Assembly (NCBI RefSeq): GCF_017313085.1
Contig: NZ_JAFLNF010000006.1
Coordinates: forward strand, 1 to 64,000
Direction: 5' to 3'
Source: Roseibium limicola
Lineage (GTDB): Bacteria; Pseudomonadota; Alphaproteobacteria; Rhizobiales; Stappiaceae
DNA length: 64,000 nt
Below, piece by piece: positions 36,056 through 51,927 of this stretch; the stretch's first letter is position 1, and every line of letters starts with the position of its first letter. The notes under the pieces were generated by a model. That model ran no database searches and was not told the DNA's origin. It was given only the letters and a program-made list of their open reading frames with translations. A program made the position numbers and the translations under genes.

Positions 36056-37117
36056 TCAAATCGGAGCGTCGGGCAAGGCTATAAAATTCTGGGCAAGTTT
36101 TACAAGGGTTTCGGGTGTGCCGAAACCGCCTGATTTGGTAATGACGGTCATGCCGGGTCGTCCGTCCACCATAGTGGATACCGGCAGGCCAGGCAGTCTT
36201 TCTCCCAAGACTTGCAGAACCCCGCAGCCAAGCTGTCTGGCAATTTCTGCGGCAGTCTCGCCGCCGCTGGCAACCAGGGTTTGCGGTTCGAACCGCGCGA
36301 TGAATTGGCTGCAGGTGTCTGCAAATTGTTGAGCGACAGTCTGACCATCAAGGGTTTCAGGCCCTTGCGTCAACTGCAGAACCTGCAAGGCAGCGGGTAA
36401 TGCGGCGGCAGTATCGGCATGTCCATTGGGTAATGGCATTGGAACGATGCCTGCAACCTTCAGCGTTTCAATCTGGGCGAGGGTGATCGGGTCACGCGAT
36501 CCGATGGCGAACAGGGCGGGGCCTTGCAGATCGCAGTCGAATTCTTTGACGCGCGCCGGTGCAAAGCGTCGCGCCAAAGCTTCGGCAAGGCCCGCAGCTC
36601 CGACGAAAAGCGTTTCGGCTCCGTGGTCTTGAACGGCAGCATCCAGATCGGCATCTTCGGTCACATCGACGATTGCTGACAGTGGGCATTGGGTGCGCTC
36701 TGCCACGGAGATCGGCTCGGCGATGCCTGCCCCGAAGAGCGTTCCGGATTTTACAAGTCGTGCGAAGCGCGGGATGGCAGGCGAAACGAGCCAGGAGGAA
36801 CGTGCAGGACCAAGCCCTGACAGCTCTGCGGCTACATGACCTTTCAGGCGGCTGTCGACTTTCTTGAAAAGCAGTGCCTGGCTCCAGGGCGCAAGTTTTT
36901 GGCATGCGGCCCAAACGGCGCCAACTGCATTTTGTGCTGATTGCTCAGAGCCTTCCCGAGTGTTTGTCGAGATAGCCAATACATCTGGGCTACGTGCGAG
37001 CGCCTCAGTCACGTGGTCGGGCGTCAGGGCGCAGAGAACGGACAAGCCGCGCCCGGCGAACGCCACGGAACTGTCGAGAGCTCCGGTGACATCGTCAGCG
37101 ATAATCAGAATTTTCAT
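36056..37117 (-). CDS. Short DUF1537 acid-sugar kinase (D-threonate/D-erythronate kinase type)
   Basis: A 353-aa member of the four-carbon acid sugar kinase family, about 60 residues shorter than otnK in this window. The N-terminal IIADDVTGALDSS and substrate motif LLFKKVDSRLKG are of the type seen in D-threonate and D-erythronate kinases. The C-terminal ASGGETAAEIAR and ITKSGGFGTPETL form the nucleotide site. The shortening seems to fall in the middle of the protein, where the N-terminal domain ends early. It should phosphorylate an acid sugar for PdxA2 (34271-35251). Confidence 0.85.
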   Translation of the reverse strand: MKILIIADDVTGALDSSVAFAGRGLSVLCALTPDHVTEALARSPDVLAISTNTREGSEQSAQNAVGAVWAACQKLAPWSQALLFKKVDSRLKGHVAAELSGLGPARSSWLVSPAIPRFARLVKSGTLFGAGIAEPISVAERTQCPLSAIVDVTEDADLDAAVQDHGAETLFVGAAGLAEALARRFAPARVKEFDCDLQGPALFAIGSRDPITLAQIETLKVAGIVPMPLPNGHADTAAALPAALQVLQLTQGPETLDGQTVAQQFADTCSQFIARFEPQTLVASGGETAAEIARQLGCGVLQVLGERLPGLPVSTMVDGRPGMTVITKSGGFGTPETLVKLAQNFIALPDAPI

Positions 37118-37233: not shown

Positions 37234-38658
37234 TCACGCCACCTTCGCACTGAACGTTCCGGCGAGATAGCCGAAGGCGATGGCGGTGAGGAGGCCGTTG
37301 CCGGAGAGGTAGCCGCTGACATCCGGGCCGGAAACGCCGCAGGCGGCCCCGCCCCCGGCAAACAGGTTAGCGAAGGGCTTGCCGGTTGCATCCAGCACAC
37401 GCGCGGTTCTGTCAATCATCATGCCGCCCTGAGTGTGAAACAGCGCACCCGTTACTTTGACGGCGTAATAAGGAGGGGTCAGCCCGGTCTTGGTGCTGAA
37501 GTCCCGGCCATAAGGATCCGCTGAGGCTCCGCGCTGACAGGCCTCGACCTGTGTCAGCGTATCACGCAAGGGCTCCTCCGGCAGACTGGTGACCTGTGCC
37601 AGGCTGGTGAGGCTCTCTGCCTGGCGGATGGCCCCCGCGCCAACGGCGTCCTGATAATCCGGGAAGCTGAGGGCAAAGTCGTGACGGGTGCGATCGAAGA
37701 TGTTCCAGGCAATGCCACCGGGCTGCTGCAGCACGTGCACCGCCTGTTCCGAATAGCCGCCGTGTTCATTGGAAAATCGTTGGCCAGACCCATTCACCTG
37801 AATGCCGCCTTCCATCATCAGGGCCCAGGAAATCAGGATGCCGTGCGGGTGGGCCAGGGAGCCGTGTCCCTGATAGCCACTGAGATGGCGTAAGTCGGCG
37901 CCGAGGGACACGCCCCACAAAAGGGCGTCGCCGGTGTTGCCTTCGTGACCGTAGTACAAGCCACCGGCGATCTCCGGGATGTGCTCGGCAACCAGAGCCC
38001 GGTTGCCGCCATAGCCGTTGCAGGCAAGGATCAACGCGGAACAGCCGAGGATTTCAACCTGTCCATCGGGCCTCGTAATTTCAACCGCTGTGATGCGGGT
38101 GCTGTCGTTGGCGTCGTTGCTGTCTGGTGCGACATAAAGCCGGGTAACCCGAGCTTCCGTGACAATCGGAATATCAGCATTTTCTGCAGCGGAGAGCAGC
38201 CGGGTCAGCAGGGCTGCGCCGGTTTTTTCCGGAACCGCATGCATGCGGTGGCGGCTGTGGCCGGGGTAAAGAAAGTCGTCGAGGACGACCCACTCCAGAC
38301 CATGGGCATCCGCCAGCCATTCCAGCGCCGGACCAATGGTCTGACTGGCCAGACAGGTGAGGGTCGGCTCGGACTTGCCCTTGGATTTGGCCAGAAGATC
38401 GGCCTCAAACAGCTCGGGCGTATCGTCGTTGACACCAACAGCCTGCTGGAAGCGTGTGGCGGGCGCTGGAATGAACCCGGACGACATTGAGGTGGAGCCC
38501 GACGGCGAAGCGTCACGCTCAAGCACCAGGACATCGGCCCCGGCGGCTTTGGCCCTGAGGGCGGCAGTCAGCCCGCAGGCTCCGGCACCAATGACGACGA
38601 CGTCCGCAGACGCATCGATTCGCGGTGGCACGTCGCTGCAAATCTCGCCCGCACTCAT
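37234..38658 (-). CDS. FAD-binding dehydrogenase/reductase (fumarate reductase flavoprotein family)
   Basis: A 474-aa soluble flavoprotein. The FAD site VVVIGAGACGLTAALRAKAAG is near residue 20. A GSTSMSSGFIPA loop follows, and the C-terminal GALFHTQGGMMIDRTARVLD and NLFAGGGAACGVSGPDVSGYLSGNGLL segments complete the FAD_binding_2 fold. Relatives reduce fumarate-like double bonds or desaturate ring ketones. It is the last gene of the 51279-37234 operon. There it could introduce or remove a C=C next to a carbonyl in the cyclic or unsaturated substrate; the direction cannot be told. There is no signal peptide or haem domain. Confidence 0.85.
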   Translation of the reverse strand: MSAGEICSDVPPRIDASADVVVIGAGACGLTAALRAKAAGADVLVLERDASPSGSTSMSSGFIPAPATRFQQAVGVNDDTPELFEADLLAKSKGKSEPTLTCLASQTIGPALEWLADAHGLEWVVLDDFLYPGHSRHRMHAVPEKTGAALLTRLLSAAENADIPIVTEARVTRLYVAPDSNDANDSTRITAVEITRPDGQVEILGCSALILACNGYGGNRALVAEHIPEIAGGLYYGHEGNTGDALLWGVSLGADLRHLSGYQGHGSLAHPHGILISWALMMEGGIQVNGSGQRFSNEHGGYSEQAVHVLQQPGGIAWNIFDRTRHDFALSFPDYQDAVGAGAIRQAESLTSLAQVTSLPEEPLRDTLTQVEACQRGASADPYGRDFSTKTGLTPPYYAVKVTGALFHTQGGMMIDRTARVLDATGKPFANLFAGGGAACGVSGPDVSGYLSGNGLLTAIAFGYLAGTFSAKVA

Positions 38659-38659: not shown

Positions 38660-39274
38660 TTACGCTCCGTTCACGAAGGCAGTCGCATCCGCACAGCTCA
38701 TCACCTTGGAGACTGTTCTCAGATCACCGATCGCCCGGTCATGGGTCTCCTTGGAGAAGGCCGCACATCCATCAGAAAGAACGATGGTCTGGAAGTCGCG
38801 CACATGGGCGTCGCGCACGGTCGAGGCAACACCGCCGTTTGTAACGATGCCGCAGACGATCAGCGTGTCGATGCCTGCCTTTTTCAGGACCCATTCCAGC
38901 CGCGTCATGAAAAAGGCTGAATAGGCCACTTTCTCCACCGTCAGGTCAGCGGGCTGCAACAGATCGACCAGCTGGTGGCCCCAGGCGCCGGGGCAGAAGT
39001 CCCCCTTGGAGAGAAACGGGCGAAGCTCCTTCAGGTGGGGAGATATGAAAGGGGCACCGGCCTTTCCGGGCACCAGGGTGAATTGGGTGGAGATCACCCA
39101 ACCTCCTTTGGCGCGCAAGGCATTGGCGACGGGCAGAACCCGTTCCGGCAGGGCCGTAATGTCTGTACTGGCCTGTCCGGCGCGGCCGTAGGCGCCCTTC
39201 GGGTCGAGAAAGTCGTTCTGCAGATCGACAATCAGCAGGCCTGTCCGGGACAGATCAATTTGAGCAAGATCCAT
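38660..39274 (-). CDS. Isochorismatase-fold hydrolase lacking the catalytic cysteine
   Basis: A 204-aa protein of the isochorismatase/cysteine hydrolase family. Asp17 (LLIVDLQNDF) and Lys115 (VEKVAYSAFF) match two of the three catalytic residues. The third motif reads CGIVTNGGVAST, so the nucleophilic cysteine of amidase members (TNxC) is Gly148. True isochorismatases also have Gly there and hydrolyse without a cysteine, so the protein may be active but is unlikely to be an ordinary amidase. It sits five bases from hyuA and next to the FAD enzyme. Confidence 0.85.
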   Translation of the reverse strand: MDLAQIDLSRTGLLIVDLQNDFLDPKGAYGRAGQASTDITALPERVLPVANALRAKGGWVISTQFTLVPGKAGAPFISPHLKELRPFLSKGDFCPGAWGHQLVDLLQPADLTVEKVAYSAFFMTRLEWVLKKAGIDTLIVCGIVTNGGVASTVRDAHVRDFQTIVLSDGCAAFSKETHDRAIGDLRTVSKVMSCADATAFVNGA

Positions 39275-39278: not shown

Positions 39279-41330
39279 TCACCTCACTGGCTTGATGATC
39301 AGGTTGCCGAAATGGTCCACTTCACCAGCCAGGCCGGGATCGACAAAGATAGTGGTATCGGACTGTTCCAAGAGAGCCGGACCATCGATGCGGGCGCCAA
39401 TTTCTAGCGACAGCCGTTCATAGACGGTCGCCTCATGTGACTGCCCGTCGACATAGACCATGCGCTTGCCGAGAACGCACTCGGCGGCTGACTTTCCGTC
39501 AGTGGGAGCGAAGAGGGTCATATCGAGGCCTGGGCGACGACCGATGACGGCGATGCGGTAGTTCATCACGCGCATGGGGATACCGTCGAGCAGGCGCCCG
39601 AACTGAGCCTGATAGGCTTTTTCAAAAGCACCGCGAATGGCAGTCTCCGTCAAGTCGCCTTCGGGCATGGTCAGGGACACCGTGACCGTATGGGTCTGGC
39701 CGAGATACAGCATGTCCAGTTCAAACACCCGGTCGACACCGGCAAAGGAGACCCCGGCGGTTTCCAGCAGGGCTTCCGTTTCGCCGGCAACCTTTTCCAT
39801 CTCGGTACCCAGAGCACCAGTGTCGATCTGGTCGAGCAGTTTGTTGACGGTCTGGACCTTGTCGTGACGCATGTCGGCAACAACGCAGCCAAGCGCCGAG
39901 GTGACGCCGGGAAACCGCGGGACGAGAGCGGAGCCAAGGCCGACTTCCTTGATCAGCGCACCTGTGTGCAGCGACCCGCCACCGCCGAAGGGCATGGCGG
40001 CGAATTGCGCCGGGTCATGGCCTTTTTCGATGGACACCAGACGAATGGCGCCAGCCATCTTGGCATTGGCGAGCTTGAGGATGGCTTCCGCCGCATCTTC
40101 GATGGTCAGTCCTAGCGGCGTGGCGATATGCGCCTCGATGGCTTTACGGGAAGCGTCGATGTCGAGCCGGTCGAGCTTGCCGCCGATGGGCCTGTCCGGG
40201 TTGATGCGGCCGAGGACGAGATTGGCATCGGTCACGGTCGGGCGGGTGTTACCGAGGCCGTAGCAGACCGGTCCGGGATCGGACCCGGCCGATTCAGGGC
40301 CGACCTGCAGCAGACCGGACTTGTCCACCCCGGCAATCGAGCCGCCACCTGCGCCAATCGTCGTGATCTCGATCATCGGCGTGCGCACGACCATGCCGAA
40401 GTCGATTGAGGTTTGTGCCGTGAGCGCTGCCTGGCCGCCGGCGACCAGCGACACGTCGAAGGAGGTGCCGCCCATGTCGCAGGTGATGATGTTGGGGAAC
40501 CCGGCGGCGTCTGCAATCGCCGTTGCCGCGATGACGCCGGCAGCCGGACCGGAGAGCGCGGTGCGCACGGGATAGCGTTTGGCGGTGTCAATGGACATCA
40601 CCCCGCCGTTCGACTGAACGATCAGAATGTCGCCGAGGAAGCCTTGTGCCTTCAGGCCATTCTCCAGCCGGTCCAGGTAGGACGCGACGGAGGGCTGGAG
40701 ATAAGCATTCAGGGTTGCCGTGGACAGGCGTTCGAATTCGCGGATTTCCGGCAGGATTTCCGTTGCAGCCGTCACATAGGGGTTGGGCCAGACCGAGCGC
40801 ACGGCTTCGACGGCGCGGCGCTCATTGTCGTTGTTGGCATAGCCGTTGATGAAGAAGATGCAGACCGCTTCGCAGCCGCTTTTCATCAGAAAATCGGCCT
40901 GAGCCTTGACCTCTGCCTCGTCCACCACCTGCAAAACGGAGCCGTCGGCCAGCACCCGTTCGCCGACCTCAACCCGGTCGGGGCGTTCCACGACGGGAGA
41001 AAAGCTGCCCTTCAGGCCCCATGTGGTCGGCCGGTCGCGCCGCCGCATTTCCAGAACGTCCTTGAAGCCTTCGGTGGTGATGATGCCGGTGCGGGCACCC
41101 TTGCGCTCCAGCAGGGCGTTGGTGCCGACCGTGGTGCCATGCACGACGGTGGAAATTTCGGCGAAGTTGTCGACCTTGGAGCTGATGCCCTCAATAAAGC
41201 CCTTTGACTGATCGCCGCGGGTGGAGGGAACCTTGGTGGTGGTGATGGTGCCGTTGGCCTCGTCCAGGATGAAGACGTCGGTGAAGGTTCCGCCGACGTC
41301 GACGCCGGTCACATATGCGGGTTTTTTCAT
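39279..41330 (-). CDS. hyuA: Hydantoinase/oxoprolinase subunit A (HyuA-like)
   Basis: A 683-aa ATP-binding subunit. The N-terminal VTGVDVGGTFTDVFILD is the phosphate motif of the acetate kinase/actin fold. Further family blocks are VHGTTVGTNALLERKGA, the central TCDMGGTSFDVSLVAGG and FGGGGSLHTGAL. With HyuB it forms an ATP-dependent enzyme that opens cyclic amides (hydantoins, 5-oxoproline) or carboxylates ketones, as acetophenone carboxylase does. The start overlaps hyuB by ATGA. Substrate unknown. Confidence 0.92.
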   Translation of the reverse strand: MKKPAYVTGVDVGGTFTDVFILDEANGTITTTKVPSTRGDQSKGFIEGISSKVDNFAEISTVVHGTTVGTNALLERKGARTGIITTEGFKDVLEMRRRDRPTTWGLKGSFSPVVERPDRVEVGERVLADGSVLQVVDEAEVKAQADFLMKSGCEAVCIFFINGYANNDNERRAVEAVRSVWPNPYVTAATEILPEIREFERLSTATLNAYLQPSVASYLDRLENGLKAQGFLGDILIVQSNGGVMSIDTAKRYPVRTALSGPAAGVIAATAIADAAGFPNIITCDMGGTSFDVSLVAGGQAALTAQTSIDFGMVVRTPMIEITTIGAGGGSIAGVDKSGLLQVGPESAGSDPGPVCYGLGNTRPTVTDANLVLGRINPDRPIGGKLDRLDIDASRKAIEAHIATPLGLTIEDAAEAILKLANAKMAGAIRLVSIEKGHDPAQFAAMPFGGGGSLHTGALIKEVGLGSALVPRFPGVTSALGCVVADMRHDKVQTVNKLLDQIDTGALGTEMEKVAGETEALLETAGVSFAGVDRVFELDMLYLGQTHTVTVSLTMPEGDLTETAIRGAFEKAYQAQFGRLLDGIPMRVMNYRIAVIGRRPGLDMTLFAPTDGKSAAECVLGKRMVYVDGQSHEATVYERLSLEIGARIDGPALLEQSDTTIFVDPGLAGEVDHFGNLIIKPVR

Positions 41331-43063
41331 TCTGCTGCCTCCTGGCGGCGCAAGTCTGCAGTTTTTGTCATGTCGATGGAGCCATCTGCCGTGAGCGCCA
41401 CGCTGAAGTCGCGCGTTGCGGCCTCGGGCGTGATGTAGCCAAGGGCGAGGTCACGGGCGACCGCTTCCGGGTCGCGCAGGCGCGGGTCACCGTAGCCGCC
41501 ACCACCGGGGGTTTCAAGCTTCAGCTTTTGGCCCCGCTCGATGTGGATGCCGATCATCTTGGAGGTCATGGGCGGAGTGTGATCGCCGTCGGCCTGCTCA
41601 TAGGTGAAGCGGTTGAGGGCCGCGTCGCCGCCACCGAGAATTCCTTTCGGGGCATATTTGCCGCGCTCGCCAAACAGGAATACGTCGGCGTCCTGCTCCA
41701 ACAGTTCGATCTCATAGGTTGCGCCGAGGCCGCCACGGGTGGTGCCCGGACCGCCACTGTCGGGACGCAAAGCCCATTGCGTGAAGCGGACCGGATAGGC
41801 GCTTTCGAGGATTTCCAGCGGCGGGATCGTCGCGGTGGAAATCGGTGCATTGCCGTGGTTGAGGCCGTCGCCGCCCGCATGAGCGCCGTGGCCACCGCCG
41901 AAGAAGGAGAACATCACCCAGCGCTTGCCATCGGCCCGGTGCCCGGCGAGCGACAAGGCGTTGATAGTGCCATAGGCAGGCGCCATGGCGTCTTTGGGAG
42001 CCAGCTGGGAAATCGCCTGAAAGACAACGTCGATCAACCGCATGATCGTCTCGGTGTAGCCACCGACCGGCTTGGGTGCCTTGACCGACAGAAGGCTGTC
42101 GTCATCAATCTTGAAGTCGACTGGCTCCAGTACGCCCGCATTGGCCGGCACATCGCCAAAGATGTGCTTTAGAGCCACATAGCAGGCGGCAATTGTCGTG
42201 GCGCGAGAGATGTTCACCGGTCCAGCGCAGGCCGGGGAGGAGCGGGTGAAATCCATCACCATGCGGCCGTTTTCGATGGTCAGATCAAGGGCGATCTTCA
42301 GCGGTTCGTCCTTGATGCCGTCATTGTCGAGGAAATCTTCGGCAGAGACAGTGCCCTCCGGCAAGCCGGAAATCTGGGCGCGCATCATGTCCGCAGCGCG
42401 TGATTTCAATTCGCCGAGGGAGTCCGCCAGTACCGCGTCACCATATTCATCGAGCAGCGCTTTCATGCGCTTTTCGCCCAGGTCGAGTGCGTTGATCTGG
42501 CCGTTGAGGTCACCATACAGCGACAACGGCAGACGCGAGTTCGCCGAGAGAATATCGACCACGTCGGAGCGGTACACGCCCTTGTCGTAGAGCTTTACCG
42601 GCGGGATCAGCATGCCTTCCTGGAAGCATTCGGTGGCGGCCGGGTTGTAGTTGCCCGGAACGTTGCCGCCGACGTCGTGCCAGTGGCCCACGGAGGCAAG
42701 GAAGCAGAACACCTTGCCATCGCGGAAGATCGGTTTGACCAGCCGGAAGTCCGACAGATGGGTGCCGCCGACATACGGATCATTGAAGATCCAGACGTCG
42801 CCTTCATTCAGTCCACCTTGAGCCGTTGCCTTGTCGATGACGGCTTTTACGGCAAAGGCCATGACGCCGACGAAAATAGGCAGGCCAGACTTGCCTTGCA
42901 CCAATGTGTCGCCGGTTTGCGCGTCATAGATGCCATGGGAGGCGTCATGCGCCTCGGCGATGATCGGATTGAAGGCGGAGCGGAAAAGCGTCGCGTCCAT
43001 CTCGTCGGCGATCTGCTCCAGACGGCCTTTGAGGATCGCAAGGGTTACAGGATCAATCGCCAT
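41327..43063 (-). CDS. hyuB: Hydantoinase/oxoprolinase subunit B (HyuB-like)
   Basis: A 578-aa hydantoinase B-family subunit. Recognisable blocks are DPVTLAILKGRLEQIADEMD at the N-terminus, FNDPYVGGTHLSDFRLVKPIF, VGHWHDVGGNVPGNYNP and the C-terminal GGGGYGDPRLRDPEAVARDL. The His/Asp-rich central motifs suggest the metal site known in this family. It ends overlapping hyuA and begins at the stop of the lyase gene, so the three are coupled. It should be the hydrolytic or carboxylating half of the HyuAB complex. Confidence 0.92.
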   Translation of the reverse strand: MAIDPVTLAILKGRLEQIADEMDATLFRSAFNPIIAEAHDASHGIYDAQTGDTLVQGKSGLPIFVGVMAFAVKAVIDKATAQGGLNEGDVWIFNDPYVGGTHLSDFRLVKPIFRDGKVFCFLASVGHWHDVGGNVPGNYNPAATECFQEGMLIPPVKLYDKGVYRSDVVDILSANSRLPLSLYGDLNGQINALDLGEKRMKALLDEYGDAVLADSLGELKSRAADMMRAQISGLPEGTVSAEDFLDNDGIKDEPLKIALDLTIENGRMVMDFTRSSPACAGPVNISRATTIAACYVALKHIFGDVPANAGVLEPVDFKIDDDSLLSVKAPKPVGGYTETIMRLIDVVFQAISQLAPKDAMAPAYGTINALSLAGHRADGKRWVMFSFFGGGHGAHAGGDGLNHGNAPISTATIPPLEILESAYPVRFTQWALRPDSGGPGTTRGGLGATYEIELLEQDADVFLFGERGKYAPKGILGGGDAALNRFTYEQADGDHTPPMTSKMIGIHIERGQKLKLETPGGGGYGDPRLRDPEAVARDLALGYITPEAATRDFSVALTADGSIDMTKTADLRRQEAAE

Positions 43064-43929
43064 CAGTTGGCCCCCTTGTCGTATTGGCGGCCTTTTTCGA
43101 GCAGCGCCGGTGTGCCGATCAGGTCGTTCAGTCCGGCGAAATCCAGCATCCGGTCGCGGAAGGCCTCGTTGGAACCTGCGGCCAGAAGGTTGGCGTAATA
43201 ATCGCGGGCAGTGCAGGCCAATGCCCGAACGACGCCGCCAGGGAAAATGACAAAGCTGAAGCCGAGGGCCTCCAGCTCGGCGGCATTGACGATGGGCGTC
43301 TTGCCGCCTTCGACCATGTTGGCCATCAGCGGCACCCGACCGGCGAAGCGCGCGACGACTTCCTTCATCTGCTCCAGTGATTGCGGCGCCTCGATGAACA
43401 GCATGTCGGCTCCGGCCTCGATATAGGCTTCCGCACGCGCGACTGCAGCCTCAAATCCCTCGACGGCGATGGCGTCGGTGCGACCGATAATCATCGTCTC
43501 ATCATTGGCGCGTGCATCACAGGCGGCACGGATTTTCCCTGCCATTTCCTCAAGCGCGATCAGAGACTTTCCGTCCAGGTGCCCGCAACGTTTGGGCATC
43601 GTCTGGTCTTCCAGCTGCAGGGCATTGGCGCCCATGCGCTCGAACGTCCGCACGGTGCGCTGAACATTCAGCGCATTGCCGAAGCCATTGTCCGCATCGA
43701 CGATGATCGGCAGCTTGATGCGATCCCGCACAGTGGCAATGGTGTCGGCAACTTCCGACATGGATACCAGACCGATGTCTGGTCGGCCAAACCGCGTGTA
43801 GGCGATGGACGCACCGGAAAGATACACAGCCTCGGCACCGGATTGTTCGGCAATCAGCCCGGTCAGCGGGTCGTAAATACCGGGAGCCAACAGAATGGCT
43901 TTCTCCCCCAGGCGTTTTTTCAGGCACAT
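43063..43929 (-). CDS. PEP mutase/isocitrate lyase-family C-C lyase
   Basis: A 288-aa TIM barrel of the PEP mutase/isocitrate lyase superfamily. The metal site IVDADNGFGNA has D78 and D80. The gating-loop motif MPKRCGH (111-117) has the Cys115 that marks true lyases such as 2-methylisocitrate lyase and 2,3-dimethylmalate lyase, rather than mutases. It therefore probably cleaves a 2-hydroxy diacid to pyruvate or a related keto acid plus a carboxylate. The aconitase-type hydratase encoded just before it could make that diacid. The exact substrate is inferred. Confidence 0.88.
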   Translation of the reverse strand: MCLKKRLGEKAILLAPGIYDPLTGLIAEQSGAEAVYLSGASIAYTRFGRPDIGLVSMSEVADTIATVRDRIKLPIIVDADNGFGNALNVQRTVRTFERMGANALQLEDQTMPKRCGHLDGKSLIALEEMAGKIRAACDARANDETMIIGRTDAIAVEGFEAAVARAEAYIEAGADMLFIEAPQSLEQMKEVVARFAGRVPLMANMVEGGKTPIVNAAELEALGFSFVIFPGGVVRALACTARDYYANLLAAGSNEAFRDRMLDFAGLNDLIGTPALLEKGRQYDKGAN

Positions 43930-44432
43930 TGTCCGTGCTCCTTGTTGCGCTCCTTGGAGAAGCGTTTTTTGAGATGCGGCACCAGCCCGCCATCGGCGAG
44001 CAGCACCTTCAAATTGTCAGGAAGGGGTTCCAGCTGGATCACTCGGCCTGTTTCGGTGAGGGTCAGCGTGCCCTGATCCAGATCGAGGCTGACGATGTCG
44101 CCGTCACTCAGTTCTGGAAGATCAGGGGCGATCAGAACGGGAAGTCCCAGATTGATGGCGTTGCGATAGAAGATACCTGCGAAAGATCGGGCGATCACTG
44201 CGGCAAGACCGAGGCGTTTCAGGGCCTCAGCCGCCTGTTCGCGAGAGGAACCCATGCCGAAATTCTTGCCCGCAACCAGGACGTCTCCGGCGGAAACAGA
44301 GCTGGCGAACGCGGGGCGAATGCCTTCCAGACAGTGGGCGGCAAGCTCTTCAATGCCGCCTTTCATGTATTGTCCAGGGGCGAGTTGATCCGTGTCGATA
44401 TCGTCGCCAAATAGGAAAAGCCGTGAGCTCAT
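43920..44432 (-). CDS. Aconitase-superfamily hydratase, small subunit (LeuD-like)
   Basis: A 170-aa swivel domain. It opens FLFGDDIDTDQLAPGQYM and has the motif NFGMGSSREQAAEALKRLG that binds substrate in isopropylmalate isomerase, homoaconitase and dimethylmaleate hydratase small subunits. I place the start at the ATG at 44432, which overlaps the large-subunit stop by ATGA; the longer open frame to 44813 is antisense-like and unrelated. With the 428-aa large subunit it forms a two-subunit [4Fe-4S] hydratase. Leucine synthesis is an unlikely role in this operon. Confidence 0.9.
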   Translation of the reverse strand: MSSRLFLFGDDIDTDQLAPGQYMKGGIEELAAHCLEGIRPAFASSVSAGDVLVAGKNFGMGSSREQAAEALKRLGLAAVIARSFAGIFYRNAINLGLPVLIAPDLPELSDGDIVSLDLDQGTLTLTETGRVIQLEPLPDNLKVLLADGGLVPHLKKRFSKERNKEHGQCA

Positions 44433-45715
44433 GCGGCGATCTCCTCTTTCAGGAAGGGGCGCGGATCGGTGATGTATCCGGCAACCGCCGAAGCAGCGAC
44501 TGTGAACGGCGAACCGAGCCAGACCTGTGATGAGGCAGCTCCCATTCGTCCCTTGAAATTGCGTGCCGTGGACGAAATGCAGGTAACGTCCTCGCCCAGC
44601 CGATGGGTGCCATAGCCGGCGCAGATACCGCAGGCATTCGGCAGGATCTTGGCGCCGGCGTCTTCCAGTATGCCGATGATACCGTCGTTGGCGGCGCGGG
44701 TTTGGTCCTGAACGGAAGATGGTGCCACCAGAAGCTCGACCCCGGAGGCAATCCGATTGCCCTTGATGATGGCGGCGGCGTTTCTCAGGTCTTCGTATTT
44801 CGCTCCGGTACAAGCGCCCAGATAGGCAACCTGAATGTTGGTTTTGGGGGCCTCATTGACCGGACCCGAGTTGGCCGGAGAGTGCGGCGCTGCGACCTGT
44901 GGCGTCAGGGTTGCCGCGTCAAACACATGACGGGCCATCAGGGGGGCATCGGCGTCGGTCTTCAGAGACCTCCAGTCAACGTCATCCAGTGCGGCTCCGG
45001 CCTGTTTGAGGAACGCCAGTGTCGTTTCGTCCGGGCCTATCAGACCTGCCTGTCCGCCCAGTTCCGCGGCCATGTTGGAAAGCGTCATGCGCTCTTGCAT
45101 CGACAGCGCTGCAATGGCTTCGCCGGTATATTCGACCGCCTGATACTGGCCGCCGTCCATGCCCAGCTTGCCGCAGAGAGCCAGCATGATGTCCTTTGCG
45201 GTGACGCCGCGAGAGAGTTGGTTCTGCCATTCGATCAGAATGGTTTGCGGCACTTTCAACCAGATCTCGCCGGTTGCCAGAACGCCGGCCATTTCAGTCG
45301 CGCCGACACCGAACATGTAAGCACCAAAAGCCCCGCCTGTCGGTGAGTGACTATCGCCCCCGACGACAAGCATGCCCGGCTTCAGATGACCTTTTTCCGG
45401 TAGAACGACGTGGCAGATTCCTTCGCCGTCATGAAATGTGACCTGCCGCTGTTTGGCCCATTGTCGGGTGAGTTCAAGAATGCGCGCGCCTTCATCCGTA
45501 TCTCCGGGGACGAAGTGATCGGAGATCAGCACGACCTTGTCCTTGTCGAAGAGACCAACGCCCAGATCCTGCAGGATCGGCTCGACCCGACGCGGGCCGC
45601 CGCTATCGTGGATCATCGCCAGATCGACCTGGCAGGTGATCACGTCACCGGGCGTCACATGATCCAGTCCAGCTGCTCGGGCGACAATCTTTTGTGCGAG
45701 TGTTGTGGCCATCAT
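44429..45715 (-). CDS. Aconitase-superfamily hydratase, large subunit (LeuC-like)
   Basis: A 428-aa large subunit. The iron-sulfur cysteines are in AYLGACTGAKYEDL and ILPNACGICAGYGTHRLG, and HSPTGGAFGAYMFGVGATEM and STARNFKGRMG complete the active site. The length matches the archaeal-type LeuC/homoaconitase and dimethylmaleate hydratase group, shorter than the 460-470 aa of enterobacterial LeuC. It starts at the livF stop with a four-base overlap. It probably hydrates an unsaturated dicarboxylate to a malate derivative. Confidence 0.9.
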   Translation of the reverse strand: MMATTLAQKIVARAAGLDHVTPGDVITCQVDLAMIHDSGGPRRVEPILQDLGVGLFDKDKVVLISDHFVPGDTDEGARILELTRQWAKQRQVTFHDGEGICHVVLPEKGHLKPGMLVVGGDSHSPTGGAFGAYMFGVGATEMAGVLATGEIWLKVPQTILIEWQNQLSRGVTAKDIMLALCGKLGMDGGQYQAVEYTGEAIAALSMQERMTLSNMAAELGGQAGLIGPDETTLAFLKQAGAALDDVDWRSLKTDADAPLMARHVFDAATLTPQVAAPHSPANSGPVNEAPKTNIQVAYLGACTGAKYEDLRNAAAIIKGNRIASGVELLVAPSSVQDQTRAANDGIIGILEDAGAKILPNACGICAGYGTHRLGEDVTCISSTARNFKGRMGAASSQVWLGSPFTVAASAVAGYITDPRPFLKEEIAA

Positions 45716-46416
45716 GACAGCCCCAGGTAGGAGCGTTTCAGCTCCGGATCATTCATCAGGTCTTTGGTTGGACCGGATAGTGAGATCTCGCCGTTTTCCA
45801 TGACGAAGGCGCGGCTGGCGATTTCCATCGACTGCAGCACATTCTGCTCCACCAGAAGCACGGGCAAGCCATCGGCATTCAGCTGTCCGATCAGTGTGAA
45901 CATCTCCTCCACCAGCAGCGGAGACAGCCCGATGGACGGTTCGTCCAGGATCAGAAGTTCCGGTTCGGCCATCATGCCGCGTCCGATGGCGAGCATCTGC
46001 TGTTCGCCTCCAGACAGGGTGCCGGCTTTTTGATCGAAGCGCTCCTTGAGACGCGGAAAAATCGCGGTGACCTTCTCGATGTTGCGCGCCCGATTTTTCT
46101 TGGCCCGACGATAGGCGCCCAGTTCCAGGTTTTCCCGGATGGTGAGGTTCGGGAAGATATGGCGCCCTTCGGGAACATGGATGAGCCCGCGTTCGACAAT
46201 GGCTTCCGAGGATTGGCCGTTCAGCAGCTCACCCTGAAAGCGGATTTCTCCGGACCAGGGCTTCATCAGTCCGGAGAGGATGGAGCTGACCGTGGTCTTG
46301 CCGACACCATTGGAGCCGAGCAGAGCAACGATCTCGCCTGCTTCTATGTCAAAAGAAACCCCGCGCAGCACTTCGACAGCGCCGTATCCCCCTTTGAGGT
46401 TCTGGATCTCAAGCAT
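45712..46416 (-). CDS. livF: Branched-chain-type ABC transporter ATPase LivF
   Basis: A 234-aa ATPase with Walker A LLGSNGVGKTT, signature LSGGEQQMLAIGRGMM and Walker B LLILDEPSIGLSP, plus the LivF-type end LVEQNVLQSMEIASRAFVMENG. The ATG at 46416 follows AGGAGG and overlaps livG by eight bases; the longer frame is an extension into livG. It is one of two ATPases of the hydrophobic-amino-acid-type importer encoded here. In this operon the importer may carry the amide, imide or acid degraded by the downstream enzymes. Confidence 0.92.
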   Translation of the reverse strand: MLEIQNLKGGYGAVEVLRGVSFDIEAGEIVALLGSNGVGKTTVSSILSGLMKPWSGEIRFQGELLNGQSSEAIVERGLIHVPEGRHIFPNLTIRENLELGAYRRAKKNRARNIEKVTAIFPRLKERFDQKAGTLSGGEQQMLAIGRGMMAEPELLILDEPSIGLSPLLVEEMFTLIGQLNADGLPVLLVEQNVLQSMEIASRAFVMENGEISLSGPTKDLMNDPELKRSYLGLS

Positions 46417-47215
46417 TGTGCGCCTCCTCTTCGGCGGCTGATTGCGCGGCCATACGAGCCGCCATGCCCTTGCCGAGATAGGCTTCGATGACCTGCGGGT
46501 CTTGGACCACATCGCGCGGGACACCCTCTGCGATCAGCGTGCCCTGATTGAGCACCCAGGTGTATTCCGACAGGCTCATCACCGCCTGCATCACATGCTC
46601 GATGAGCAAGATCGTGATGCCGTCGTCCTTGAGGGACAGGATCACCGGGATGATGTCGCGGATCTCCGAAGGGTTAAGTCCGGCAAGCACCTCGTCAAAC
46701 AGGATCAACTTCGGCTCGGTCGCTAGCGCTCTCGCCACTTCCAGTCGTTTGCGTCCGGCCACGGTCAGCGCTGCGGCATCCCGGTCCAACCGATCCCCAA
46801 GACCGACCTTGATGGCAACAGCCTCGGCCTTTTCCAGGGCTTGCCTGCGGGAACGGATGTTCAGATGAGCACCGACGGCGATGTTTTCGCGCACGGTCTG
46901 GCCACGGAATGGCTGCACGATCTGAAAGGTGCGGATCATGCCGCGTCTGGCGATATCCTGCGGGGCGAGGCCGGTGATTGTCTGACCCAGAAACGACACG
47001 CTGCCGCTGTCAGGTGTGTGAAAACCGGTGATCAGTGCAAACAGCGTTGTCTTACCGGCGCCATTCGGGCCGATAAGCGAGGTGATCTTGCCAGCCGGAA
47101 CATCCAGACGGATGTCGTTGGAGGCCTTCAGTCCGCCAAAGCTCTTGGAGATGCCTTTGACTTCCAGCATCGGAGTTTGCGTTATTGGTTGTTGCGTATT
47201 GGCAGCATCAGCCAT
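46409..47215 (-). CDS. livG: Branched-chain-type ABC transporter ATPase LivG
   Basis: A 268-aa ATPase with Walker A LIGPNGAGKTTLF, signature LTVAGRKRLEVARAL and Walker B LILFDEVLAGLNPSE. The signature lacks the second Gly (SGG becomes TVAG), as is common in LivG. The ATG at 47215 has AGGAGG just upstream, so the 11-residue Arg-rich extension is not used. It overlaps livM and livF by eight bases each. Confidence 0.92.
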   Translation of the reverse strand: MADAANTQQPITQTPMLEVKGISKSFGGLKASNDIRLDVPAGKITSLIGPNGAGKTTLFALITGFHTPDSGSVSFLGQTITGLAPQDIARRGMIRTFQIVQPFRGQTVRENIAVGAHLNIRSRRQALEKAEAVAIKVGLGDRLDRDAAALTVAGRKRLEVARALATEPKLILFDEVLAGLNPSEIRDIIPVILSLKDDGITILLIEHVMQAVMSLSEYTWVLNQGTLIAEGVPRDVVQDPQVIEAYLGKGMAARMAAQSAAEEEAHNA

Positions 47216-48185
47216 TGTTTTCCTCCTTCTTCTTGGACGCTGGGACACGGCCTGTCAGGGAGTTGATGAGGCCAGAAAGGCCGCGTGGCGAGAAGAGGAT
47301 CACCAACACCAGGAGGATGCCGTAGAGCACAAGACTGGCCCCCGGCAGATCGCCGATAACGCTGCGTGTCACTTCGGACAGAGTGTGAAGGGCAATGGCT
47401 CCGAATAGCGGGCCAAACAATGTGCCCAGACCGCCAACGATCGGCACCAGCAAGCTCTCCACCGAGACAGAGGATCCATAGGCAATCGACGGGTCGAGGT
47501 AGAGGAAGTACTGGGCATAAAAGCACCCGGCGAGGCCGGAAAACAGGCCGGAGAGCAGGATCGCGCTCATCTTGACCTTGAACGGATCCACGCCGAGGGC
47601 CCGCGCGGCATCTTCATTGTCACGCACCGCCATCAACTGGGCGCCGAAGCGGGAGTTGCCAATCCACCAGACGGTGAGGAATGCAATAAAAGTGATTGCC
47701 AGAAGCAGCCAGAAGTAGCTGGCCTTGTCGACAAACTGCATGTTGGCCGCAGACGGGTTCAGCTCGATCAAGAGACCTACACCGGCGCCGGTGAAGGGGA
47801 CGGAGTTGGACAGGATCCGCAGTACCTCGGCAAATGCCAGTGTGATCAGGGCAAAGTATGACCCCTTCAGCCCATAGCGGAATGTCGAGAAACCGATGAA
47901 CGCGGCGACGAGCATGGCCAGCATGCCTCCGGCGACCAGGCCGACCCAGGGGTTGATGCCCAGCTGAACCTGCAGCACGGCGATGGTGTAGGCGCCCGTT
48001 CCGAAGAAGGCGGCATGGCCAAAGGAAAACTGGCCACCATAGCCGCCGAGGATGTTCCAGGCCTGCCCCAGTAGGGCGGCATAAAGCACCATGATGATGA
48101 GGTTCATCCACACGGCAGAGTGGATAAAGATGGGCGCAACGGCGAGAGCTGCGAAAAGCGCCACAAGAAGAGCGAGTTGTCTCAT
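47208..48185 (-). CDS. livM: Branched-chain-type ABC transporter permease LivM
   Basis: A 325-aa membrane protein with about nine to ten hydrophobic segments. Typical LivM blocks are AWNILGGYGGQFSFGHAAFFGTGAY near residue 42 and the late GGLGTLFGPLFGAIAL. It starts three bases after the livH stop. It pairs with LivH to form the membrane channel. Confidence 0.92.
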   Translation of the reverse strand: MRQLALLVALFAALAVAPIFIHSAVWMNLIIMVLYAALLGQAWNILGGYGGQFSFGHAAFFGTGAYTIAVLQVQLGINPWVGLVAGGMLAMLVAAFIGFSTFRYGLKGSYFALITLAFAEVLRILSNSVPFTGAGVGLLIELNPSAANMQFVDKASYFWLLLAITFIAFLTVWWIGNSRFGAQLMAVRDNEDAARALGVDPFKVKMSAILLSGLFSGLAGCFYAQYFLYLDPSIAYGSSVSVESLLVPIVGGLGTLFGPLFGAIALHTLSEVTRSVIGDLPGASLVLYGILLVLVILFSPRGLSGLINSLTGRVPASKKKEENNG

Positions 48186-48188: not shown

Positions 48189-49061
48189 TTACACCTTGTG
48201 TCCGAGCAGGCCGGTGGGCCGGAAGATGAGCACCACGATGAAGATGACGAAGATGCCGATCTGGCCGAGGCTTTCGCCGAGGAACAGCCCCCCAAGTGCC
48301 TCGACGACTCCGATGATCAGTCCGCCAAGAAGAGCGCCGACGAAGGAGCCCATGCCTCCGAGAACCACGATGGTGAAGGCCACCAGCACGAAGCCTTGTC
48401 CGACATGTGGACTGACGTAATAGGTGGGGAGCAGCAGACAGGCGGCAACGCCAAGGCAGGCGACGCCGAGACCGAAGCTCATGGCGAAGACATGGTTGGT
48501 GTTGATGCCGACCAGCCGTGCCCCCTTGGGTTCCTTGGCCAGCGCCCGGATGGCGCGGCCCAGGTCCGTCTTGTTGATCACCAGCCAGAAAAGCCCGGCC
48601 GTGACCACGGCGCCAATGAAGGCGTAGACCTTGGGCTGGGGAATGAAGGTGCCGAGGATTTCGAAAACCTCGAATGAGTAGGGCGTATCGATGATCCGTG
48701 TGTCGGACCTGAAGCCCATTAACGCCAGGTTCTCGATGATGATTGCCAGACCAAGCGTCACCAGAAGAATGTTTTCATCCCGACCATGGCTGGCCTTGGT
48801 GATGACGAGGCGCTGCAACGTGTAGCCGATAGCAAACATCACCGGTGGCACGATGAACAGCGCCACATAGGGATCTACCCCCAGCACGGTGTTCAGGAAA
48901 TAGACGCCGTAGAGCGCCAGCATGAGCAGAGCGCCATGGGCGAAATTGATGATGTGGAGTACGCCGTAGATCAGGGTCAGCCCTAGGGCGACCAGGGCGT
49001 AGAGCGCACCTGTGGTTAGTCCGTTGAGAACGGACGGCAGAACAATCGCGAGATCTGGCAT
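48189..49061 (-). CDS. livH: Branched-chain-type ABC transporter permease LivH
   Basis: A 290-aa membrane protein with LivH blocks NGLTTGALYALVALGLTLIYGVLHIINFAHGALL at the N-terminus (positions about 12-45) and VLGGMGSFVGALLGGLIIG near residue 245. The ATG at 49061 is used here; a GTG at 49073 would add four residues. A stem-loop lies between it and the binding-protein gene upstream. Confidence 0.9.
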   Translation of the reverse strand: MPDLAIVLPSVLNGLTTGALYALVALGLTLIYGVLHIINFAHGALLMLALYGVYFLNTVLGVDPYVALFIVPPVMFAIGYTLQRLVITKASHGRDENILLVTLGLAIIIENLALMGFRSDTRIIDTPYSFEVFEILGTFIPQPKVYAFIGAVVTAGLFWLVINKTDLGRAIRALAKEPKGARLVGINTNHVFAMSFGLGVACLGVAACLLLPTYYVSPHVGQGFVLVAFTIVVLGGMGSFVGALLGGLIIGVVEALGGLFLGESLGQIGIFVIFIVVLIFRPTGLLGHKV

Positions 49062-49084
49062 TTTGGACCGCACCCTGGAAGGCG

Positions 49085-49131: not shown

Positions 49132-50367
49132 TTAGCCGTTCATCGGGAAGACGGTTTCGGCGGAAGCGAACTCCGAAGGGAAGATCACTTCGATATCGCC
49201 GTTCTGAACCTGGGTGTTGACCGGAGCGGCCCCCATGTTCTGGCCGTTTTCCATCTTTGTAGCCGCATAAGGCATGTAGGACATGTCCAGATTGGACCCG
49301 GCCAGCGCTTCGTTCACGGCCGCCTTGTCGGTGGTGCCGGCACGTTCGATGGCGTCGACCAGCCCGAGGACGGCGTTGTAGGCCAGGAACACCTCGTAGG
49401 TGTAAATCAGTCCCTTGGCTTCGGCTGCCGTCTTGCGCTGCATGGCAACTTCCGACTTCGGGTTGAACCAATGGTTACAATCCATGATCAGGTCGGCAGC
49501 TTCCGGAAATTCGTTGACGAACTTGTAGTTCGACGCTGCCCCGCCAAGCACGGAGTAGATGCCTTTGGCCTCGATACGCTGTTGGCGCATGGTGCGGGCC
49601 AGAAGCACATATTCGTTGTAGTAATTGGCTGGAATGATGAGGTCGGGTTGCTTGGACTTCAACTGCAGCACGATGTTGGTGAAGTCGCGTGTCGGGTTGG
49701 CGTGTTTGATCACGTCGACCACATCGATGCCGATGGACGGCAGGCGTTCGGACAGCAGGTTGGCTGTGCCGGTGCCGAAAACGGATTCCTCGTGGATGAT
49801 CATGGCCGTTTTGGCCGGAGAGGAAGACGCCTGATTGATGGCATTCAGGTTGTCGACCGCGAAATTCGCGATGTTTCCGTAGCCGGGACCGAAGCGGAAA
49901 GTGTTTTCCAGTCCGCGAGACATAATGCTGTCGGATACACCTACATCCACCACATGCGGCGTGTTGGTCTTGGCGGCTTCCTGCGATGTCGCCAGAGAGA
50001 TGGCAGAGGAGTAGCCGGCGACGATGCCTGCGACGCCTTCTTCCGCCATCTTGCCAACTTCACTGGCGCCGATTTCAGGCTTGCCCTGGCTGTCGGCAAG
50101 AACCGCTTCAACCTGAGCGCCACCCAGCGACTTGATGCCGCCGGCTGCGTTGATGTCGGCAATGGCCATCAAGGCACCTTCACGGCATTGGCTGCCGGAG
50201 AAGGCGATAAAGCCGGATACTGGATGAACCAGACCGATCTTTACCGGAGCTGCCTGCGCCCGCAGGACGGAGGGAAAGCCCGTGACGCCAAGGCCAAGAG
50301 CCGCGACGCCGGAGTTTTTCAGGAATTGACGACGACCGAGGCCGCCGGATTTCATAGTATCTGTCAT
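49132..50367 (-). CDS. Tat-exported substrate-binding protein of the Liv-type importer
   Basis: A 411-aa Peripla_BP_6 protein. The N-terminus has a twin-arginine signal GRRQFLKNSG followed by a hydrophobic stretch and LRAQAAP, so it is probably exported folded by the Tat pathway. The mature part begins VKIGLVHPVSGFIAFSGSQCREG. I chose the ATG at 50367, which follows GGGAGG. It defines the specificity of the importer, whose ligand may be an amide or cyclic compound rather than leucine. Confidence 0.9.
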   Translation of the reverse strand: MTDTMKSGGLGRRQFLKNSGVAALGLGVTGFPSVLRAQAAPVKIGLVHPVSGFIAFSGSQCREGALMAIADINAAGGIKSLGGAQVEAVLADSQGKPEIGASEVGKMAEEGVAGIVAGYSSAISLATSQEAAKTNTPHVVDVGVSDSIMSRGLENTFRFGPGYGNIANFAVDNLNAINQASSSPAKTAMIIHEESVFGTGTANLLSERLPSIGIDVVDVIKHANPTRDFTNIVLQLKSKQPDLIIPANYYNEYVLLARTMRQQRIEAKGIYSVLGGAASNYKFVNEFPEAADLIMDCNHWFNPKSEVAMQRKTAAEAKGLIYTYEVFLAYNAVLGLVDAIERAGTTDKAAVNEALAGSNLDMSYMPYAATKMENGQNMGAAPVNTQVQNGDIEVIFPSEFASAETVFPMNG

Positions 50368-50433
50368 TATGCAAAACCTCCCGATTTGGCCGTCTGCCGA
50401 CGGCATCGGATTGACCCGGTGTTCCCCTAGCTT

Positions 50434-51279
50434 TTATCCGCCGCCGGCCGGGATCGGAGCGGAGCTTGTTGTTGTCCATCGCGCATCGCCATCTTCCGTG
50501 ACTCGACGCATGGACAATTCGAAATGGTAGAGATCTGGCCGGTAGAGGGCGCGGATGTACTCCACTGGACGCTCCGACCGGTCGCGCACAACGCGGCGTA
50601 CCTCAATCAGCGGGTTGCCCGGATGGGTCTCCAGCGCCGCGGCGATTTCGCCATCGGCCAGTGTTGCGGTGATTGTCTGCTGTGCGGCGTCGACGGCAAC
50701 CCCAGCGCGCTCCAAAAGGCGCAAAAGCGGGATGCGGTTCAGCTCATCATGATCATATTGTCGGCCGATGTCGGCCGGTACATAGGTGATCAGGTAGGAC
50801 ATGGGCTCGCCGTTGAGGCGGCGGACGCGCACAGCGCGCTGCACTTCATCGCCCGGATTGACTTCCAGTGCGTGGGCGATGTCATCGCTGGCCGGCACAT
50901 AGCTGAAGTCCAGAACCGATGCCTCGGTTGCCAGGCCCATGAGTGAGACATTTTCCAGCCAGCCTTCAATCGAAGATGTCACAGCGGGGGAAGGCGGGCG
51001 CTTCAGAACGCGTGTTCCTCGGCCGCGCTCACGGATCACCAGACCAGCGTCTGCCAGCTCGTTGAGGGCGCGTTTGGCGGTGATGCGGGAGACGCCGAAC
51101 TCGGTAGAGAGATCCAGCTCGCTTGGCACGAGATGACCTTCGCTGAGGTCGCCACCGTAGATCCGGTTGCGCAGGATCAGGAAGATCTGGTGATAAAGCG
51201 GCACCGGACCGGAGGAGGTCAGTCGGGCGCTTTGAGGGCGCTCGCTGCGGGCTTTCTCCAGATTGGTGGGCTCAACCAT
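50434..51279 (-). CDS. GntR-family regulator, HutC subfamily (UTRA domain)
   Basis: A 281-aa regulator. The winged helix spans PLYHQIFLILRNRIYGG to FGVSRITAKRALNELADAGLVIRERGRGT. A UTRA effector domain follows, with DEVQRAVRVRRLNGEPMSYLITYVP and HPGNPLIEVRRVVRDRSERPVEYIRALYRPD. The ATG at 51279 follows AAGGAG by nine bases; the open frame to 51300 begins with TTG. It is the first gene of the 13-gene operon, and a good promoter lies just upstream, so it probably represses its own operon until an effector binds. Confidence 0.9.
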   Translation of the reverse strand: MVEPTNLEKARSERPQSARLTSSGPVPLYHQIFLILRNRIYGGDLSEGHLVPSELDLSTEFGVSRITAKRALNELADAGLVIRERGRGTRVLKRPPSPAVTSSIEGWLENVSLMGLATEASVLDFSYVPASDDIAHALEVNPGDEVQRAVRVRRLNGEPMSYLITYVPADIGRQYDHDELNRIPLLRLLERAGVAVDAAQQTITATLADGEIAAALETHPGNPLIEVRRVVRDRSERPVEYIRALYRPDLYHFELSMRRVTEDGDARWTTTSSAPIPAGGG

Positions 51280-51305
51280 TGGAAATGTCTCCTTATTCAA
51301 ATTAA

Positions 51306-51333
51306 ATAGTATATCAATATGCCATTATGTCAA
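51306..51333 (-). promoter_or_regulatory. Promoter of the 51279-37234 operon
   Basis: On the minus strand a consensus TTGACA (51333-51328) and TACTAT (51311-51306) are 16 bases apart in an AT-rich stretch. The start would lie about 20 bases before the regulator's ATG. The whole 87-base gap is shared with the divergent tautomerase gene. Confidence 0.6.
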
Positions 51334-51366
51334 TTAAGGCGGTTTGAGAAAAATCGGAGGGATGTC

Positions 51367-51927
51367 ATGCCGGTGGTTCGAGTGTTGTTGATCGAGGGAT
51401 ATGGTGCCGAAGTACGGCGCAGATTAGGGCGAGTCCTGACAGATGCGGTTCGTCTGGTAATCGATGCGCCGAAAGACGTGATCATCGTCGCGACGGAAGA
51501 AGTGAAGCCGGACAACTACATGCGCGGGGGTCTCACCAAACAGCCTGGCGCTGCGGTGGCGGATCCGGTGGAGATTGTTCGCAGTTTTCTGTCGGCAATG
51601 GAAAACCGCGATCTTGCGCGAGCTCGGCACTTTTTATCTGACGACATGGAGATGAGCTTTCCGGGCGGCGTCCGGTTTGAAAACCTCAATGAAATGGTTG
51701 CCTGGAGCAGGACCCGCTACAGCACGATCACCAAGACGTTCGAGGGTTTCGATGTCTGCATGGGAGAGAACGGGCCTGTTGTCTTTTGTCGCGGCTTTCT
51801 CTCCGGCGGCTGGGTCGACGGTCAAGCCTTCTCGGGCATTCGCTTCGTCGATCGCTTCGAACTCTCCCATAATCTCATCTGCCGCCAGTCCGTCTGGAAC
51901 GACTTGTCGGAATGCCTCCGCGGTTGA
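51367..51927 (+). CDS. Tautomerase-SnoaL fusion protein
   Basis: A 186-aa protein with two parts. Residues 1-60 (MPVVRVLLIEGYG to DNYMRGG) look like a 4-oxalocrotonate tautomerase-type beta-alpha-beta unit with Pro directly after the start Met, as the catalytic Pro-1 requires. Residues from about 70 (VEIVRSFLSAMENRDLARARHFLSDD) form a SnoaL-like NTF2/ketosteroid isomerase fold. The ATG at 51367 follows CGGAGG; the open frame to 51319 would bury the proline. It is divergent from the hydantoinase operon and may tautomerise an intermediate of that pathway. The function is inferred. Confidence 0.8.
   Translation: MPVVRVLLIEGYGAEVRRRLGRVLTDAVRLVIDAPKDVIIVATEEVKPDNYMRGGLTKQPGAAVADPVEIVRSFLSAMENRDLARARHFLSDDMEMSFPGGVRFENLNEMVAWSRTRYSTITKTFEGFDVCMGENGPVVFCRGFLSGGWVDGQAFSGIRFVDRFELSHNLICRQSVWNDLSECLRG

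Follow-up and report, generated by a model that had tools for sequence, protein, structure and literature searches.

The gene at positions 51,367–51,927 of the analyzed DNA from Roseibium limicola (a stretch of 64,000 nucleotides, here called the window) encodes a fusion of a 4-oxalocrotonate tautomerase (4-OT)-like domain and a SnoaL-like domain, both from families of enzymes that move protons. Its distribution among genomes strongly supports that the predicted protein belongs to the pathway encoded by the operon diverging from it. The reading we prefer, tentatively and with slightly less than even weight, is that the protein would be a bifunctional 4OT-SnoaL-type isomerase which catalyzes an accessory step of this catabolic pathway. 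The fusion type itself is not new; it has been recognized and crystallized by others as 4OT-SnoaL. Our analysis adds that the fusion is closely linked to an operon as an accessory, that its 4-OT site is altered throughout the 45 proteins aligned and that the two halves also occur separately.

Gene start and domain structure

51,356–51,361, forward strand: ribosome-binding site GGAGGG, read directly, 5 bases before the ATG at 51,367
51,367–51,927, forward strand: 4OT-SnoaL fusion protein, 186 amino acids (open reading frame, Pfam, alignment, structure homology)

The encoded protein begins with Met-Pro-Val-Val, the Pro codon CCG directly following the ATG at 51,367. A second in-frame ATG lies upstream at 51,319. 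The original prediction had chosen the start by the ribosome-binding site, which places Pro right after Met. This choice was confirmed by an alignment of 45 full-length proteins from the window, 39 same-family loci and five plasmid loci (43 core fusions and two divergent members). In all 45 a start codon, ATG or in a few cases GTG, aligns exactly with position 51,367 and is followed by Pro.

The tautomerase half comprises residues 1–60 (Pro1 after removal of Met) and the NTF2/SnoaL half approximately residues 65–182. Residues 2–56 matched the Pfam family Tautomerase (PF01361) with an E value of 5.3e-10 and 39.5 bits against a cut-off of 22, and at E 0.001 no other place in the genome matches the Tautomerase family. 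The match of residues 71–173 to SnoaL_2 (PF12680; E 9.8e-5) reached 23.3 bits and remained under the cut-off of 27; we therefore file the C-terminal half by its NTF2-like fold and not as a member of that Pfam family.

The closest protein of solved structure is represented by the PDB entries 9mua and 9mup, titled "4OT-SnoaL from P. atlanticus" in the apo and the 3-bromopropiolate treated form, respectively, and released on 2025-04-09. The 186 residues of 9mua start at Pro and are colinear with the window protein over both halves. In a phmmer comparison residues 2–181 of the window protein matched residues 1–180 of 9mua with an E value of 5.6e-50 and 83 of 180 residues identical; by half, the tautomerase part contributes 25 identities over 60 residues and the SnoaL part 56 over 114. 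A search of the open-access literature revealed, among the matches listed, nothing on the 4OT-SnoaL fusion or the operon and no description of a function for 4OT-SnoaL, even though the structure has been solved; a paper on 9mua may exist elsewhere. We know of no activity, substrate or pathway for any 4OT-SnoaL member. For MgaD of Pseudomonas sp. NGC7, a SnoaL-like protein (pfam13577) encoded among catabolic genes, a tautomerase function has been suggested, also by prediction (PMC12314914). The available text of that report does not mention a 4-OT half for MgaD, whereas the fusion has one.

The full protein was modeled with AlphaFold2 on a two-row alignment. The pLDDT values, averaged by block, were mostly 76–89 for the SnoaL half and 28–52 for the first 60 residues. 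Model residues 55–179 superimposed on 9mua with a Z score of 18.8 and an rmsd of 2.4 over 125 residues. Many NTF2-like chains matched the SnoaL half with Z scores of 13–15 and TerC with 15.3, and the NTF2-like fold proposed earlier for the second half was thus borne out. Folded alone, the tautomerase half gave the order strand-helix-strand-strand, that is, a beta-alpha-beta order, at a low-confidence mean pLDDT of 61.6. A Foldseek search with this model yielded no significant match (best E 0.35); 9mua was ranked second and several 4-OT chains were among the 50 matches listed, none of them significant. Since the predicted models of this half are of low confidence, the tautomerase fold expected for the first 60 residues rests on homology to 9mua, and the models themselves do not decide on it. 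The fusion as such is real: the tautomerase match lies above the Pfam cut-off, the second half adopts an NTF2 fold in the model, and 9mua matches from end to end.

Comparison of the tautomerase half with 4-OT

The N-terminal Pro is common to the fusion and 4-OT (1bjp), and the fusion differs by its extra C-terminal SnoaL half. Window residues 2–55 match chain residues 1–54 of 1bjp; thus, the mature numbering of both proteins appears to be equal. According to the available text of PMC11641302, the key residues of 4-OT besides Pro1 are Arg11, Arg39 and Phe50. The window protein carries Tyr11, Ile39 and Tyr50 at these positions. Pro1, Tyr11, Tyr50 and Arg52 are shared with 9mua; residue 39 is Thr in 9mua and in 39 of the 43 core fusions. 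Invariant in all 45 aligned proteins are Pro1, Gly10, Tyr11, Ala33, Glu44, Tyr50 and Arg52.

None of the NCBIfam tautomerase models matched at its cut-off, the best equivalog scoring 31.1 bits against 55. An assignment as 2-hydroxymuconate tautomerase (4-OT proper) was ruled out, because Arg11 and Arg39 are replaced, as is Phe50, and Tyr11, Tyr50 and Arg52 are invariant. Pro1, Tyr11, Tyr50 and Arg52 are candidates for active-site residues, with a position in the pocket deduced from the 4-OT numbering, and Arg52 is the candidate carboxylate binder.

The divergent operon

Upstream of the fusion gene 13 genes on the reverse strand, from a GntR-type regulator to a flavoprotein, form an operon which includes a five-gene transporter of the branched-chain ABC type:

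50,434–51,279, reverse strand: GntR-UTRA regulator, at the head of the divergent operon (Pfam)
49,132–50,406, reverse strand: periplasmic binding protein, Peripla_BP_6 (Pfam)
48,189–49,073, reverse strand: ABC permease 1, BPD_transp_2 (Pfam)
47,208–48,185, reverse strand: ABC permease 2, BPD_transp_2
46,409–47,248, reverse strand: ABC ATPase 1 (open reading frame from the first possible start)
45,712–46,524, reverse strand: ABC ATPase 2 (open reading frame from the first possible start)
44,429–45,715, reverse strand: large subunit of aconitase/isopropylmalate-dehydratase type
43,920–44,432, reverse strand: LeuD/DmdB-type small subunit (TIGR02087, 186.3 bits against a cut-off of 108.95)
43,063–43,929, reverse strand: lyase of the isocitrate-lyase/PEP-mutase family with the motif KRCGH
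41,327–43,063, reverse strand: hydantoinase B/oxoprolinase (HyuB)
39,279–41,330, reverse strand: hydantoinase A/oxoprolinase (HyuA)
38,660–39,274, reverse strand: isochorismatase-fold cysteine hydrolase, RutB-like
37,234–38,658, reverse strand: FAD_binding_2 flavoprotein, flavocytochrome c/TcuA-like

Both the number of genes and the distance of 87 bases between the operon and the fusion agree with the original prediction. In the alignment of the flavoprotein, Tyr replaces an Arg of 1qo8 and 1d4c which we take to be Arg402 of the fumarate reductase flavocytochrome c3, and Trp occupies the position of what is presumably Glu378; numbers and roles of these residues are assumed here. The reference chain for the numbering also carries Tyr at 402 and is presumably a mutant. 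A simple succinate-type desaturation by the flavoprotein is unsupported, as the residues of fumarate reductase are not kept, and we therefore do not commit to a dicarboxylate substrate.

Beyond the far end of the operon (34,271–37,117) the window contains a PdxA-like gene on the forward strand and two genes on the reverse strand, one of the GntR-FCD type and one resembling sugar-acid kinases; they possibly belong to a separate sugar-acid pathway.

Linkage of the fusion to the operon

Full-length fusions were found in 40 of 87 same-family genomes; 47 genomes had some match, seven of these to the SnoaL half only. A close HyuB, defined by an E value of at most 1e-150 and at least 62% identity at the best place, is encoded in 42 of the 87 genomes, including all 40 fusion carriers. 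Thus, 40 of these 42 genomes carry the fusion, and none of the 45 without a close HyuB does (table 40/2/0/45; Fisher p 8.6e-23, a value that overstates independence because the genomes are related). The flavoprotein was detected in the same 42 genomes, and its copy in G037 has an internal stop. The two exceptions with close HyuB and no fusion are G008 and G077. In G008, HyuB is 87% identical, an apparent LysR-type gene lies upstream of the GntR gene and the fusion was not found. A joint loss of flavoprotein and fusion in G077 was considered and withdrawn, since the flavoprotein gene lies just outside the stretch first fetched.

Three gene orders were observed. In one group the fusion diverges from the ABC-type operon. 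In another it heads the order hyuB-hyuA-hydrolase-lyase-flavoprotein and diverges from GntR-leuC-leuD-TRAP; AcnL of this TRAP-type group is only 34–38% identical to that of the window. On three Sulfitobacter plasmids the end of the fusion gene overlaps the start of hyuB by four bases. The version of Tistrella and Neorhizobium has 163 residues and is encoded directly before the flavoprotein gene, with MmgE/PrpD in place of the aconitase pair.

Among 385 genomes of the class, 12 full-length fusions at good scores (including the window) and two of the Tistrella type were detected. At least two core genes lie near seven of the 11 other class-level fusions, one lies near two of them (G087, G333) and none near the last two (G421, G445); approximately 10 kb were fetched on each side for these counts, some cut by contig ends, and the contig of G333 measures 11 kb. 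From reading of the sequence, the fusion in G445 is followed by apparent SDR-like and isochorismatase-like genes. The phylum sample of 398 genomes contained one further full-length fusion, G776, besides the window. In both samples SnoaL-only relatives are more widespread than the fusion, and a search for related loci over the genome contigs returned a single relative, the SnoaL-only locus L033.

The control region between fusion and operon

51,280–51,366, no strand: divergent control region, the gap of 87 bases between the GntR and fusion genes
51,306–51,325, forward strand: predicted regulator site with the sequence ATAGTATATCAATATGCCAT, differing at two positions from the inverted repeat ATGGTAT-N6-ATACCAT of the relatives

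A GntR gene diverges from the fusion at a distance of 87–264 bases in 46 of 49 loci, namely in the window, all 39 same-family loci, all three Sulfitobacter plasmids and three of six class-level loci; these six were taken from the 11 other class-level fusions. In the remaining three class-level loci the GntR gene lies 1.7–4.6 kb from the fusion. The inverted repeat ATGGTAT-N6-ATACCAT, with up to two mismatches, is present in the GntR-fusion gap of 18 of 18 ABC-type loci, and the TRAP-type group has another repeat, CTGTATTATANAAAATACA, with up to four mismatches in 24 of 25; these counts are descriptive and partly circular, both repeats having been read from the same gap sequences. With up to three mismatches the ABC-type repeat occurs at two places in the window versus 0.66 expected, which was equalled in 12 of 100 shuffles. 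With up to two mismatches it occurs at four places in the genome of R. limicola versus one for the reversed pattern. The divergent arrangement and the predicted site in the gap support a control region common to the fusion gene and the GntR operon, as had been proposed.

Separate occurrence of the two halves

In G373 and G280 the place of the fusion beside GntR-AcnL-AcnS-lyase is taken by a SnoaL-only protein, and in G151 such a protein is found beside HyuA and the hydrolase. No tautomerase remnant was detected in the 240 bases upstream of the SnoaL-only genes in G373, G280, G151 and G367, and no separate tautomerase gene was found beside SnoaL-only members when open reading frames of at least 40 codons in the fetched loci were searched with a fusion-derived profile. 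A stop codon inside the G280 match was considered as a trace of a tautomerase half and ruled out, as nothing resembling that half was read in these 240 bases. The one tautomerase-only match, G400 (L128), is an ordinary 4-OT with Arg11, Arg39 and Phe50; it is not near the operon and is surrounded by apparent genes for aromatic-ring catabolism. A 509-residue open reading frame with a terminal SnoaL part (L121) was not counted as another fusion; with an internal Met immediately ahead of that part, the remainder is more probably a chance extension. In the SnoaL tree the fused G445 and the unfused G367 are sisters with a support of 100/99; this pair alone was used, the tree containing many open forks and duplicated rows from two fetches of the same genomes. 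The two SnoaL/NTF2-like proteins of this clade that stand alone in the genome of R. limicola are 38–39% identical to the C-terminal half and lack the tautomerase half. In Tistrella and Neorhizobium (L037:12001-12492, L038:12001-12492) the tautomerase residues are kept, and many SnoaL positions that are invariant elsewhere are changed or deleted.

We treat the halves as separate sites, because some lineages possess the SnoaL half alone and others an altered SnoaL half with the tautomerase residues kept. From the sequences, this separability makes two distinct sites more plausible than a composite one; it would equally fit that only one half mattered in each lineage.

A different reading, which we consider unlikely but the most serious competitor, is that the SnoaL half alone would be catalytic for the pathway and the tautomerase half mainly an oligomerization scaffold around the 4-OT core. 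The SnoaL-only proteins in the same gene neighborhood (G151, G280, G373) and those whose neighbors in Antarctobacter and Roseovarius are genes for aconitase, lyase and isochorismatase point in this direction, as does the absence of both 4-OT arginines. Among the 43 core fusions the SnoaL half also has more invariant positions (28 of its 119, against 8 among the 60 of the tautomerase half), but the mean pairwise identity is alike in the two halves (0.55 and 0.59). Moreover, a scaffold would not need Pro1, Tyr11, Tyr50 and Arg52, which are retained in 45 of 45 proteins, and exactly the tautomerase residues persist in Tistrella and Neorhizobium, where the SnoaL half is much altered. The treatment of the 9mup protein with 3-bromopropiolate, a Pro1-directed probe, likewise argues against a mere scaffold.

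Several SnoaL-only relatives occur in other gene contexts. The genome of R. limicola encodes two SnoaL-only paralogues, G000:C10:258551-258934 (L080) and G000:C2:63078-63446 (L139). The L080 protein has a WND motif near its C-terminus, and its gene, like those of several relatives, adjoins amidohydrolase, GntR and ABC genes instead. Proteins of approximately 290 residues in L124, L125 and L144 (family f32, same class) carry two SnoaL domains of this clade in tandem, and isocitrate-lyase/PEP-mutase genes are present in all three stretches. In L033, L039 and L140 (Roseovarius, Antarctobacter and G076) a GntR-lyase pair diverges from aconitase A, behind which lies a SnoaL-only gene. Genes for a dihydroorotase-like protein and an isochorismatase come next in L033 and L039. 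This operon type may be a parallel route in which another enzyme opens the ring.

The operon without the fusion

On annotated plasmids the operon set was found without the fusion in Roseomonas (L168) and Azospirillum (L169), both with the flavoprotein, and in Paraburkholderia (L170), there without the flavoprotein as well. In Roseivivax (L171) only the GntR and lyase genes are present, beside a tripartite tricarboxylate transporter. A profile search for both halves in these four stretches found neither; they are four of 39 plasmid records with a lyase match, examined in this way besides those already seen. As the core operon exists without the fusion in G008, G077, Roseomonas, Azospirillum and Paraburkholderia, the fusion is, by this distribution, an accessory step of the core pathway. 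The earlier suggestion that fusion and operon serve the same pathway therefore stands with a restriction: the co-occurrence (40 of 42 versus 0 of 45) and the three gene orders speak for it, but the fusion is not a requirement.

The same distribution bears on a further explanation, according to which the fusion would serve for the general clean-up of a by-product that is reactive or wrongly tautomerized, and would be carried along with the operon without being part of the main route. We rate this as somewhat less probable still than the scaffold. It would account for the operon without the fusion in several genera, for related SnoaL-only proteins in other settings and for the two class-level fusions without a core gene nearby. 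It is at odds with the one-way co-occurrence in the family, where 40 of 40 fusion genomes have a close HyuB, and with the four-base overlap with hyuB on the three Sulfitobacter plasmids.

Proposed role in the pathway

In the preferred reading as an accessory isomerase, the ABC transporter would import a cyclic amide, imide or hydantoin, HyuAB would open the ring, and the RutB-like hydrolase would remove a second amide or carbamoyl group. A double bond adjacent to a carbonyl would be introduced or removed by the flavoprotein. Next, the fusion would move this double bond, or the enol/enamine tautomer, to the position needed by the hydratase. Here, Pro1 would act as general base, and Arg52, Tyr11 and Tyr50, in place of Arg11, Arg39 and Phe50 of 4-OT, would hold a single-carboxylate or amide substrate; the SnoaL half may perform a second proton transfer or a hydration in its own pocket. 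Subsequently, the LeuCD-type hydratase (MmgE/PrpD in relatives) would hydrate an unsaturated diacid, and the lyase of the methylisocitrate/dimethylmalate-lyase type would cleave the malate-like product. The order of these steps is inferred, and hydantoin, imide and lactam are indistinguishable from the data. The last two steps have an analogy in nicotinate fermentation, with its dimethylmaleate hydratase and dimethylmalate lyase. This analogy has partial support in the predicted proteins, from the DmdB-family match of the small subunit and from 2,3-dimethylmalate lyase among the solved relatives of the lyase, of which methylisocitrate lyases score higher.

The CaaD and malonate-semialdehyde-decarboxylase (MSAD) branches of the tautomerase superfamily catalyze hydratase and decarboxylase reactions. 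That the tautomerase half would be such a hydratase or decarboxylase rather than an isomerase is very improbable. In its favor, the absence of Arg11 and Arg39 together with the invariant Arg52 indicates a site different from that of 4-OT, and cis-CaaD and MSAD are listed among five superfamily branches in the available text of PMC11641302. Against it, the closest models are those of the general Tautomerase family and 4-OT chains.

Returning to the accessory isomerase, a more far-reaching proposal can be made, which is possible though rather doubtful. The operon might encode a new pathway for cyclic imides, lactams or hydantoins which proceeds by ring opening, amide removal, flavin redox chemistry, a double-bond shift by the fusion, hydration and carbon-carbon cleavage. 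The fusion might couple two consecutive proton transfers by means of a single-arginine 4-OT-like site (Pro1/Arg52/Tyr11). To our knowledge, such a site is not found among characterized tautomerases.

The linkage to the operon gives the solved 4OT-SnoaL structure a metabolic setting. The function of 4OT-SnoaL becomes testable by searching for a ring compound that induces the operon and an intermediate that piles up without the gene, and relatives with one half only constitute a natural experiment on the two halves. On the plasmid of Sulfitobacter sp. S190 (L034:25017-30068), approximately 3 kb past the fusion operon, genes annotated as xanthine-dehydrogenase-type, molybdopterin-dependent and 6-hydroxynicotinate reductase were observed.
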